This document shows, in pieces, positions 6,506-43,814 of a DNA stretch of 64,000 nt. The DNA is from Nosocomiicoccus ampullae (GTDB lineage: Bacteria > Bacillota > Bacilli > Staphylococcales > Salinicoccaceae), in NCBI RefSeq assembly GCF_019357495.1, contig NZ_CP079110.1:682001-746000 (forward strand), in the 5' to 3' direction. Under the pieces are notes generated by a model. That model did no database searches. It saw only the letters and a list, made by a program, of their open reading frames with translations, and was not told the origin of the DNA. Numbering within the stretch: position 1 is the first letter of the stretch; each line of letters starts with the position of its first letter. Position numbers and translations under genes: made by a program.

Positions 6506-6683
6506 GAACAAATAATAAAATGAAGTTGATGACATGACAGAAACATTGCGGTAGATGAGAGCAATGCATCGACAAAAATGTGCATAAATTTTAATAAATT
6601 TAAAGTGATGAATAACATTCATAACATGGGTGGTACCGCGGATAGAATTCGCCCCTTTTTATAAGGGTGAATTCTATTTTTTA
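6506..6683 (+). promoter_or_regulatory. T-box riboswitch controlling alaS
   Basis: The leader has the T-box core GGGTGGTACCGCGG (6628-6641), which pairs with the uncharged tRNA acceptor end. It is followed by a terminator (arms about 6642-6657 and 6663-6677, then a T-run). A short hairpin (ATTGC...GCAAT, 6545-6565) carries a loop like the apical part of Stem I. A GCA alanine codon at 6582-6584 is the best specifier candidate by analogy with the glyQS leader. The distance from transcription start to specifier is only about 77 nt, so Stem I looks short. Low charged tRNA-Ala should allow read-through into alaS. Confidence 0.85.
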
Positions 6684-6700: not shown

Positions 6701-9328
6701 ATGAAAAAAGTATCGACAAACGAACTGCGTCAAATGTTTTTAGATTTTTTTAAATCTAAAGGACATAGTATCGAACCAAGTAGAAGTTTAATCCCTGTAA
6801 ATGACGACACACTATTATGGATTAACTCAGGAGTGGCGACATTAAAGAAATATTTTGACGGAACAGAAAACCCAGACAATCCAAGAATTGCGAACGCACA
6901 AAAATCAATCCGTACAAACGATATTGAAAACGTCGGATTTACAGCAAGACACCATACGTTTTTTGAGATGCTCGGCAACTTTTCAATCGGTGACTATTTT
7001 AAAGAAGAAGCGATTGAATTTGCATGGGAATTTTTAACGAGTGAGAAATGGTTAAATTTTGAAGAGGAAAAACTGTATGTCACAATTCACCCTGAAGATG
7101 ATGAATCTTATCATATTTGGAAAGATGATATTGGTATTGAAGAAAATCGTATTATTCGTATAGAAGGAAACTTCTGGGATATCGGAGAAGGGCCATGTGG
7201 TCCAAACACTGAGATTTTCTACGATAGAGGTGAATCCTATGAGGGTGATACACCACGTGAAGAAATGTATCCAGGCGGAGAAAATGAGCGCTATTTAGAA
7301 ATTTGGAATTTAGTATTCTCTGAATTTAACCATAACAGTGATCATACCTACACACCACTTCCTAAACAAAATATTGATACTGGTTTAGGGCTTGAAAGAT
7401 TATCAAGTGTGATTCAAGACGTACCAACAAACTTTGATACAGATGTTTTCATCCCAATTATTGAAGAAGTTGAGAAAAAATCTAACAAGAAATACCGTGA
7501 TAATGACAAAGATGACGTAGCATTTAAAGTGATCAGTGACCATATTCGTACAGTTGCTTTTGCAATTGGTGACGGTGCACTTCCAGGTAACGAGGGTAGA
7601 GGTTATGTGTTAAGACGTCTCATCCGCCGTGCAACGCGTTATGTTAAAGAACTCGGTATTAATGGCACTTTCCTTTACACGTTAGTTGACGTCGTTAATG
7701 ACGTTATGAACGAATTCTATAAAGAAATCGATGAAAACAAAGACTTTATTAAAAAAGTAATCGAACAAGAAGAAGCGAGATTCCTTCAAACGTTAGATGA
7801 GGGACTTGAAATCTATAAGAATGTTAAAGAAAAAGCTTTAAAAGAAGACAAAGTCATTAGTGGTAAAGATGCATTTAAATTATATGACACATTCGGATTC
7901 CCTGTAGAGATGACGACTGAATATGCTGAAGAAGATGGGCTTACTGTAGATCTTGAAGGATTTAAAGATGAAATGGAACTTCAAAGAGAACGTGCACGTG
8001 CAGCACGTAAATCATCAGATTCTATGAATGTTCAATCCGAAACGTATCAAAAGTTAACGAAAGATAGCATTTTTACTGGTTATAATAGCTTAAAAGAAAA
8101 TTCTAAACTACTCTATATCGTTAACAATGAAGAAACACTCGATAGTTATGATGGCACTGATTATGTCGATGTCATTTTCGATAAAACACCATTTTATGCT
8201 GTAAGTGGTGGTCAAGTTGCAGATAAAGGAATTATCTATAATGATCACGGTAAAATGGAAGTGACAAATGTCTATAAAGGACCGAACGGCCAAAATATTC
8301 ATACAGTAAAAGTGTTAGAAGGTGTCATTCAAATTGATGAAGATTACACATTAGAAGTAAATCGAGAGAGCCGTTTATTTATCATTAAAAACCATACGGC
8401 AACTCACTTACTGCACCAAGCACTTAAAGATGTTGTTGGAAGTCATGCAAACCAGGCAGGATCTCTTGTTGAAAAAGAACGATTACGTTTTGACTTTACA
8501 CATTTAGAAGGTTTAAAAGAGGATGAAATTAAAGAAATAGAGCGTATCGTAAATAAAAAGATATTTGAATCACTTCAAGTAGTGATTGAAGAAATGCCAA
8601 TCGAGGATGCGAAACGTAAAGGTGCAATGGCATTATTCGGTGAAAAATATGGAGATGTAGTAAGAGTTGTAGATATAGATGAATACTCAGTTGAATTATG
8701 TGGGGGTATCCACGTTAAAAATACAGCTGAAATTGGTCTATTTAAAATTGTTTCTGAAAGTGGAATTGGTGCAGGTGTAAGACGTATTGAAGCAGTTACA
8801 TCAAAATATGCAGTGAAATATTATGAAGAAAAAAATGAAACTGTTGAATCTGTAAACTATCTTGTTAAAGCAAAAGCGGACAATACAGTTTCTAAAGTTG
8901 AGAATTTAATTGAAGAGAAAAAACAACTTGAAAAAGAAGTAAAATCTCTAAAAGCAGAACTTCAACAAGATGCATTATCTGATTTAAGTGATGATACGTT
9001 CAAAATAAATGACTTTAATTTAATCGCAACTGAAGTAAAAGTAGATAGTGTTAAAGAATTAAGAGAGACAATGGATATAGTTAAATCTAAAAATCAAGAA
9101 AGTATTATCGCACTTATCTCTAATATTGATGACAAAGTATCGATGATTGTCACAGTACCGAAAGCACAAACAAAAATTGTAAAAGCTGGAGATATAATCA
9201 AGAAAATGGCTGAAGCGGTCGATGGTAAAGGTGGTGGACGTCCAGATATGGCTCAAGGTGGCGGTACAGATGTTAAAAATATGTCTGAAGCGTTACAGTT
9301 TGTTAAGGATTATCTTAATAGTTTTTAA
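6701..9328 (+). CDS. alaS: alanyl-tRNA synthetase
   Basis: This class II synthetase charges tRNA-Ala and hydrolyses mis-made Ser- and Gly-tRNA. The catalytic domain starts with [19 protein letters not shown] in the first 100 residues. The editing domain has its zinc ligands H565 and H569 (HTATHLLH), and C667 and H671 (CGGIH). The C-terminal glycine-rich oligomerisation segment ([14 protein letters not shown]) is complete. At 875 residues it is full length. AGGAGG sits at 6688-6693. Expression is controlled by the T-box leader upstream. Confidence 0.98.
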
Positions 9329-42212: not shown

Positions 42213-43604
42213 TTAATTCATTTTTTCTTTTAAATAATCGTTTAAGTCTTCGATTGCGATACGTTCTTGTTCCATCGTATCTCTGTCGCGTACTGTGACT
42301 TTGTTGTCTTCTACAGAGTCGAAGTCAAATGTAATACAGTACGGAGTACCGATTTCGTCTTGACGACGGTAACGTTTACCAATTGACTGACTTTCATCAA
42401 ATTCAATATTAAAGTCTGGTGCCAGCTGTTCATATACTTTCATTGCTTCATCACTTAATTTTTTAGATAATGGCAACACCGCAGCTTTAAATGGTGCAAG
42501 TCTATGGTGTAACTTTAATACGTTACGTTTTTGACCGTCACCGAGGTCTTCAATTTCATAAGCATCCACTAAAAATGCAAGAGTCATACGATCTAAACCT
42601 AGAGACGGTTCGATAACGTTTGGCACATATTTTTCATTTGTTTCAGGATCATGATATTTAAAGTCCGCACCAGAATACTCCATATGTCTAGATAAGTCGA
42701 AGTCTGTACGTGACGCGATTCCCCATAACTCTCCCCAGCCGAACGGGAATAAGTATTCAAAATCTACAGTTGAGTTAGAGTAGTGTGATAGTTCATCTTC
42801 ATCGTGTGCACGAATTCTAACTTTATCCATATCAATTTCTAAATCTTTTAACCATTGTTCAGCATAGTCTCTCCAATAGTCGAACCACTTTAATTCTGTT
42901 CCTGGTTTACAGAAGAACTGTAACTCCATTTGGTCAAACTCACGTGTACGGAACGTAAAGTTACCTGGAGTAATTTCGTTACGGAACGATTTACCGATTT
43001 GGCCAATACCAAATGGTAATTTTTTACGCATTGAACGTTGAACATTTCTAAAGTTAACGAAAATACCTTGTGCTGTTTCAGGACGTAAGAAAATATCAGT
43101 TGATGAGTCTTCTGTGACACCTTGGCTTGTTTTAAACATTAAGTTGAATTGACGAATTTCAGTGTAATTATGTGACCCACATACTGGACATTTAATATCT
43201 TCTTCTTCGATTAATTTACTCATCGCATCAAATGACATACCATCTGCAACGAATGTATCGTCTGTTTTATGCATATGTTCTTCAATTAACTTGTCCGCAC
43301 GTAAGCGTGATTTACACTCTTTACAGTCAAGCATTGGATCGTTAAAGTTTTCTAAGTGACCTGATGCTTCCCATACTTTAGGGTTCATTAAAATCGCAGC
43401 ATCAATCCCGACGTTATACGGTGATTCTTGAACAAACTTTTTCCACCATTGCTGTTTAACGTTATTTTTTAATTCGATACCTAACGGACCATAGTCCCAA
43501 GTATTTGCAAGTCCACCATAAATTTCTGAACCTGGGAACACAAAACCTCTCGTTTTGGCAAAATTAACAATTTCATCCATAGAGTACTTTTTTTCTTCTG
43601 ACAT
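42213..43604 (-). CDS. glyQS: glycyl-tRNA synthetase (dimeric class II type)
   Basis: This single-chain alpha2 glycyl-tRNA synthetase has 463 residues from ATG 43604 behind GGGAGAAG. Family segments include [47 protein letters not shown] and [13 protein letters not shown]. It also has a C..C/C..C zinc element (CKEC, CPVC). The frame continues upstream into the T-box leader and that part is not translated. Expression is controlled by the glycine T-box. Confidence 0.97.
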
Positions 43605-43624: not shown

Positions 43625-43779
43625 AAAAAAACCTGGATAACAAAAAACTGTTACCCAGGGGCGAGTAAAAAACCCGCGGTTCCACCCTAATTTATATTTT
43701 TATAATTGCTTCATTTCGTCATATTATATTTTAAATGCCAAGTCATTTGTTAAGCTTTCACTATTCTTAACTCGCTGTT
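43625..43779 (-). promoter_or_regulatory. T-box riboswitch controlling glyQS
   Basis: On the minus strand the T-box core AGGGTGGAACCGCGGG (43673-43688) is followed by a terminator (arms CCTGGGTAACA and TGTTATCCAGG, then T7). A short hairpin with arms GTTAAG and CTTAAC and a GTGAAAG loop precedes a GGC glycine codon (43737-43739), the likely specifier. Only about 40 nt separate the predicted transcription start and the specifier, so Stem I is much shorter than in the Bacillus glyQS leader. Confidence 0.9.
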
Positions 43780-43785
43780 ACAAAT

Positions 43786-43814
43786 ATTATATAATTAATA
43801 TATTACCAATGCAA
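43786..43814 (-). promoter_or_regulatory. sigma-A promoter of glyQS
   Basis: On the minus strand TTGCAT (43809-43814) and the perfect TATAAT (43786-43791) are spaced by 17 bp, just upstream of the T-box leader. A TATAAT at 43849-43854 on the plus strand may serve the divergent ppsR. Confidence 0.8.

Follow-up and report, generated by a model that had tools for sequence, protein, structure and literature searches.

Glycine T-box leaders in the order of Nosocomiicoccus ampullae appear to keep only the distal head of Stem I

In a 64,000-nt stretch of the Nosocomiicoccus ampullae genome (NZ_CP079110.1, positions 682,001 to 746,000; hereafter the window), the minus-strand gene glyS is preceded by a transcriptional glycine T-box. 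We read this leader, with a probability of about 0.75, as a transcription-terminating glycine T-box of a reduced design found across its order, in which the head of Stem I stacks on the tRNA elbow and the codon is carried on a tether. The nascent RNA would begin with the distal head of Stem I, that is, the AG-bulge strand and then a 6-bp stem closed by a double T-loop, and this head would stack on the tRNA-Gly elbow. An 8-11-nt tether would follow on its 3' side and carry the glycine codon at its end, instead of in an internal loop of Stem I; there UGGN would pair with the anticodon, and the invariant U would probably contribute a further pair, to A37. At the other end of the tRNA, U73-CCA would pair with the UGGA bulge. 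Uncharged tRNA would stabilise the antiterminator and glyS would be transcribed; with charged or absent tRNA the terminator at 43659-43632 would form. The parts, their conservation, the covariation of the hairpin and the synonymous specifier changes are read from sequence; the elbow stacking, the tether as a ruler, the A37 pair and the regulation in Nosocomiicoccus itself are what we infer.

The GlyRS of this genome is 99% identical to that of Candidatus N. stercorigallinarum. The gene has ppsR as a divergent upstream neighbour and recO as a convergent downstream one, and its leader is made up as follows (window coordinates).

43786-43814, minus strand: promoter, with -35 TTGCAT at 43814-43809, a 17-nt spacer and -10 TATAAT at 43791-43786
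43778, minus strand: predicted transcription start, the A of ACAGCGAG, placed by analogy with S. aureus transcript distances
43771-43776, minus strand: AGCGAG at the RNA 5' end, matching the 5' AG-bulge strand of Stem I; six columns invariant in 71/71 leaders
43749-43771, minus strand: distal (head) hairpin of Stem I, 6 bp (GUUAAG/CUUAAC), loop AAUAGUGAAAG with the GUGNNAG signature; covarying
43740-43748, minus strand: 9-nt spacer, its last base the invariant U(-1); 8-11 nt in 71/71 leaders
43737-43739, minus strand: GGC specifier, beginning at +40 of the predicted start
43692-43705, minus strand: putative Stem III, UUAUA-AAAA-UAUAA; by eye, weak, mismatched in the sister genome G002
43657-43688, minus strand: antiterminator, with A1 AGGG/CCCU, A2 CGGGU/ACUCG and the T-box bulge UGGA at 43684-43681 (UGGA in 71/71 leaders)
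43674-43688, minus strand: T-box sequence AGGGUGGAACCGCGG
43632-43659, minus strand: intrinsic terminator, then seven T; its first 3 nt overlap antiterminator arm A1
42213-43604, minus strand: glyS, dimeric glycine--tRNA ligase, 463 aa (NF003211 at 696.1 bits against a cutoff of 312, for a query that began one codon earlier)

A terminator scan of the window leader found one terminator against a shuffle mean of 0.2. Antiterminator arm A1 and the terminator have CCU in common, the shared sequence expected of RF00230, and the two forced structures come to -7.0 and -15.1 kcal/mol; taken alone, this leader has a predicted fold of no striking stability (z -1.59, equalled by 14 of 200 shuffles). The Rfam T-box model (RF00230), which the original prediction had proposed as a check, does match the leader (30.7 bits, E 3.7e-5), but so far under its gathering score of 93 that the leader is missed, and an Rfam scan of the whole window at the gathering threshold returned no match. 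Thirteen T-box matches with E<=3e-5 are found in the genome, of which the glyS leader is the weakest and ten, the glyS leader included, fall below the gathering score. A second T-box in the window (6506-6659, plus strand; 59.1 bits, also under the gathering score) lies directly upstream of a long ORF at 6701-9328 that looks by eye like alaS.

GlyRS searches find glyS in all but two of 157 genomes of the order (155, counting that of the window). Upstream DNA was taken from 71 of the other 154, giving 72 leaders with the window, of which 71 are usable (the sequence taken for L159, from G122, lay within the gene and was set aside; L169 and L170 are identical). All 71 share one layout, a start near AGCGAG, a single 6-bp hairpin and UGGN 8-11 nt further on, which is therefore neither chance nor peculiar to the window genome. 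The same layout was read by eye in named loci of Jeotgalicoccus, Phocicoccus, Salinicoccus and seven Staphylococcus species; families f3 and f4 of the sample are presumably Gemellaceae and Staphylococcaceae. The original prediction, a glycine T-box whose Stem I is very short, with a GGC specifier and an ordinary core and terminator, is borne out by the window sequence, but not as the oddity of one genome: the short form is the glyS leader of every usable relative sampled, that of S. aureus included. Among 80 loci from the GlyRS search, 12 have no GGNACCGCG within 520 nt upstream, and 7 of these 12, rechecked over 420 nt with GGTGGN(A/C)CC, had no match either.

In the gap-free alignment of these leaders (71 rows, 42 distinct), AGCGAG does not vary, nor do GUG and AG in the loop. 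The head stem varies in a paired manner: five of its six pairs have changed on both sides, 96.4% of cells are paired, and the covariation score is higher than in any of 500 shuffles (0/500 reach it) or any slid control. Further pair types are no more numerous than in shuffles (316/500). The T-box bulge is UGGA throughout and the window genome's own tRNA-Gly genes end in U-CCA or U, the bulge pairing with the NCCA of the cognate tRNA that is expected of RF00230.

By eye, the hairpin corresponds to the distal head of Stem I in full-length Bacillaceae leaders, where AGCGA(G/A) is the AG-bulge strand and GGAUGGUGNNAG the terminal double T-loop. The double T-loop head of class II is thus recognisable by sequence, in the GUGNNAG loop and its covarying stem. 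What is absent is the 5' strand of lower Stem I, which in Bacillaceae closes the specifier loop and kink-turn: the promoter stands in its place, and the predicted transcript holds no such strand for a specifier in the internal loop of a long Stem I with a kink-turn. The single small GTGAAAG hairpin of the original prediction is therefore present, but it is not a miniature Stem I that holds the specifier; as read from sequence it matches the distal head, with GGC outside the hairpin. From GGN to Stem III runs an AU-rich, poorly conserved linker.

The absence of a 5' strand depends on where transcription starts. With the pattern TTGnnn-16/18-nAnnnT, 67 of the 71 leaders have a promoter match that stops 8-13 nt short of GCGAG, and in the other four the distance is 18-22 nt; 200 mononucleotide shuffles give a mean of 3.8 such near promoters and a maximum of 10. 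The promoter of full-length glyS leaders lies 48-103 nt upstream of the hairpin in 42 of 43, a count made without L036, L052, L059, L061, L070 and L082 (hairpin pattern missed) and L034 (short upstream sequence); in five of the 43 there is, in addition, a weak promoter-like match at the near position (7-8 of 12). In the window the -35 agrees with the consensus at just 3/6 positions and a simple promoter scan did not list the glyS leader promoter; we accept it because its position is conserved across leaders. For S. aureus, the available text of PMC4608709 gives a glyS T-box RNA of 204 nt that RNase Y cleaves at +111; the same site is listed at -115 relative to the ORF, so that the ATG is at +226. 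When the A of ACAGCGAG is taken as +1, the ATG falls exactly at +226 and the T-run ends at 204 in genomes G076, G078 and G139, and at +225 and 204 in G134. We place the first three in the S. aureus complex because of their DnaG, which in G078 is nearly identical to PDB chain 4e2k and in G076 and G139 very close to it; we take this chain to be an S. aureus protein. The distances published by others for these close homologues thus fit the short RNA exactly in 3/3 S. aureus-complex-like genomes, and by analogy the Nosocomiicoccus RNA would be short as well. From the predicted start at 43778 the specifier begins at +40, in agreement with the roughly 40 nt first proposed, and 'around half' the Bacillus distance is a fair description given the 42/43 full-length promoters.

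A conventional full Stem I could still be made if transcription began further upstream, with the TATAAT beside AGCGAG unused, the very start that the original prediction had named as its refutation. The Rfam model does align out to 43815, there are 110 nt between the leader and ppsR, and the window -35 is poor. Tested in relatives, such a start is contradicted by the conserved promoter position (67/71) and by the S. aureus transcript distances, and a specifier-loop/kink-turn strand was seen by eye upstream in 0/71 leaders, so that we hold it to be very improbable. Alternatively, Stem I may have been refolded and not lost, the linker making a new small helix around GGN with the specifier in its loop. 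Local pairing is possible in individual leaders (in the window, AAAUG/CAUUU around ACUUGG belongs to the minimum-energy fold), and the available text of a review (PMC9495366) describes for the S. aureus glyS leader a Stem I with specifier loop, AG bulge and apical loop. Among the leaders, however, no helix flanking GGN rises above shuffles, the best helix between spacer and downstream flank being no longer than theirs (64/100 reach the mean), and the flanking columns vary where UGG does not; refolding is unlikely. Predicted folding leaves the specifier no more open than usual (mean unpaired 0.45, against 0.49 over all nucleotides), which speaks neither for nor against a tether.

The 5' AGCGAG might also pair with CUCGY, a strand of the antiterminator, and so serve a different switch. 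In the window this pairing, GCGAGU/ACUCGC, has no mismatch and is part of the minimum-energy fold, but AGCGAG is invariant while its partner is UUCGU in 18/71 leaders and CCCGU in two, uncompensated, and AGCGA(G/A) is also the AG-bulge strand of full-length leaders, which leaves this idea barely credible. A last alternative confines itself to Nosocomiicoccus, whose leader may be decaying and terminate mainly constitutively or randomly. The window has the lowest model score among the order's glyS leaders listed (76.9 bits; the next has 86.9), its head loop is altered, with GAAUAG in place of the GGAUGG of relatives, and Stem III differs between the two Nosocomiicoccus genomes. Single head changes also occur in relatives, however (GAAUGG, GGAUAG), and promoter, GUGAAAG, UGGC, UGGA bulge and terminator are intact in both Nosocomiicoccus genomes read; we regard decay as improbable.

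All 71 triplets are glycine codons before glyS, matching the amino acid of the downstream gene: 68 GGC, 2 GGA and 1 GGU. The single GGU belongs to L131 (G033); it would need a G-U wobble with the tRNA-Gly(GCC) there, which matches that of the window genome at 100% over 75 nt. The spacer from head to UGGN is 8-11 nt (mean 9.4) in all 71. U precedes the triplet in 71/71 leaders and in 0/48 full-length ones, where the base is A in 28, C in 19 and G in one; positions -3, -2, +1 and +2 vary while UGG is constant. Our first count searched TGG(C/T/A) and so presupposed the U; a recount that took whichever GG came first in the range 8-30 nt past the head loop again found U before it in 71/71, and in 67 it is the sole GG in that range. 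Among full-length leaders GGC was counted in 48/49 by excluding L032 (Neobacillus sp. SuZ13), a full-length glyS leader apparently with GGA. By one measure applied to both groups, the codon is separated from the end of the GUGNNAG loop by 14-17 nt (mean 15.4) in the order and by 22-24 nt (mean 23.3) in full-length leaders. Between GGN and the T-box the length ranges from 44 to 69 nt, whereas the spacer keeps to 8-11 nt, as expected of a ruler.

An A-form strand rises about 2.8 A per nt and an extended one 5.5-6 A. The tether's reach is plausible because the 8-9 nt saved are close to what exchanging an A-form for an extended strand allows: 17-18 nt of A-form (about 50 A) would be swapped for 9-10 extended nucleotides (52-57 A). 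The window genome's tRNA-Gly(GCC) has the anticodon loop UUGCCAA, with U73, and U(-1) can therefore pair with A37 and A(+1), where present, with U33; UUGGCA of the window is complementary to tRNA positions 33-38. The invariant U may thus add a pair with A37, as suggested by its conservation within one related group. The same genome holds an odd tRNA-Gly(UCC) at L201:240-314 (minus strand), with a D loop lacking the usual GG, an altered T loop and U37 (arm as read), which to our eye resembles the non-proteinogenic pentaglycine tRNAs of staphylococci.

One GGA leader offers a view of how the specifier may follow the tRNA supply. A tRNA cluster Leu(UAG)-Gly(GCC)-Leu(UAA) is present in G041 and G033, and Gly(GCC)-Leu(UAA) in G045, with specifiers GGC, GGU and GGC, respectively. 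In G043 (family f3, specifier GGA) the same cluster has between its two Leu genes an 80-nt stretch (L259:1757-1836) that neither ARAGORN nor the tRNA model recognised. It aligns collinearly with tRNA-Gly(GCC) at a score of 11.5, reached by 7 of 2000 shuffles, against at most 8.5 for the other 13 tRNAs tried. No other GCC tRNA-Gly gene was found in G043, and two UCC genes were. In this one case the sequences suggest that the GCC tRNA decayed and that the leader reads GGA, a codon for UCC. The argument is made from G043 alone: the assembly of G046, also GGA, is incomplete (14 tRNAs), and its missing GCC tRNA is no evidence. The tRNA-Gly(GCC) pattern finds the gene in 4 of 17 genomes and misses the one of G041, which has a variant T-loop, so that absence by pattern alone proves nothing.

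A covariance model built from 40 leaders (R1) was run over 398 genomes of the class. It also matches ordinary T-boxes; among the matches listed, the order's glyS leaders score at least 76.9 bits and those outside the order at most 66.4. Twenty outsiders, a selection from the strongest listed, all showed by eye further leader sequence between promoter and head. Within this sample, the head-only form is seen only in this order. Two of the twenty, L245 and L254 of family f29, have a Stem I of intermediate length with the specifier loop seemingly kept (by eye), and are possible intermediates.

The S. aureus leader is known and studied. Some descriptions of it speak against our reading: Apostolidi 2015 reportedly ascribes to it 'a long stem I, lacking features previously described', and a specifier hairpin was drawn for S. 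aureus glyS in 2010 by alignment to tyrS, according to the available text of PMC2873960. Our literature search, whose scope did not extend to the main S. aureus structural papers, found no statement of a head-only Stem I; this does not prove its absence from print, and the description is new as far as that search goes. Readthrough into glyS in S. aureus falls with PKZ18-22 in the available part of PMC7927825, in support of the homologue working as a switch. The same result also raises a contrary point: PKZ18 is described there as a specifier-loop binder, and its effect is not obviously predicted for a leader lacking a canonical specifier loop.

If a whole order, S. aureus among its members, can do without the specifier-hosting half of Stem I, tRNA sensing needs a smaller minimal unit than had been assumed, and this is directly testable. 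It also bears on drugs aimed at the specifier loop of Stem I, given that the S. aureus glyS leader would lack a canonical one. Going further, the order's glycine T-boxes might form a fifth architectural class, defined by a head-only Stem I, an unstructured tether of fixed reach and a codon-anticodon duplex of at least four pairs (U-A37, sometimes A-U33) that compensates for the lost specifier loop; we put this forward tentatively, with the odds somewhat against it. If true, the T-box caliper would work as a head on a string and not as a rigid arm.

T-boxes fall into at least four classes by the design of Stem I and Stem II, as far as the available text of PMC10482949 goes, and a head without a specifier arm is none of the four described there. 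Among the closest systems is the S. aureus glyS T-box (TB-glyS / RsaOD), which in S. aureus-complex-like genomes shares with the window the gene, the AGCGAG start, the head hairpin, UGGC, Stem III and the UGGA bulge; in many Staphylococcus leaders stem Sa is inserted above the antiterminator (32 nt in one of the 9 measured, 44-59 nt in the other 8), whereas the window has none. The full-length Bacillaceae-type glyS T-box (L066, L030) shares the downstream gene, the head and the T-box core, but its promoter is about 40-90 nt further from the head, leaving room for the 5' strand that forms the specifier loop. Class II glycine T-boxes of the B. subtilis glyQS type are, on the same partial source (PMC10482949), likewise glycine-specific and attenuate transcription with a double T-loop head; the order's leaders differ in lacking the specifier-hosting lower Stem I and kink-turn, in a shorter path from head to codon and in the U before the specifier. 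The short stems of actinobacterial ileS, to which the window leader had been likened, resemble it in a shortened Stem I, but the comparison runs the wrong way round. In the available texts, classes III and IV keep the specifier within a shorter Stem I, lack the elbow-binding head and are mostly translational (PMC10482949), and the actinobacterial truncation removes the elbow motif (PMC7583486); the leaders of the order reverse this, with the head present and the specifier outside it.
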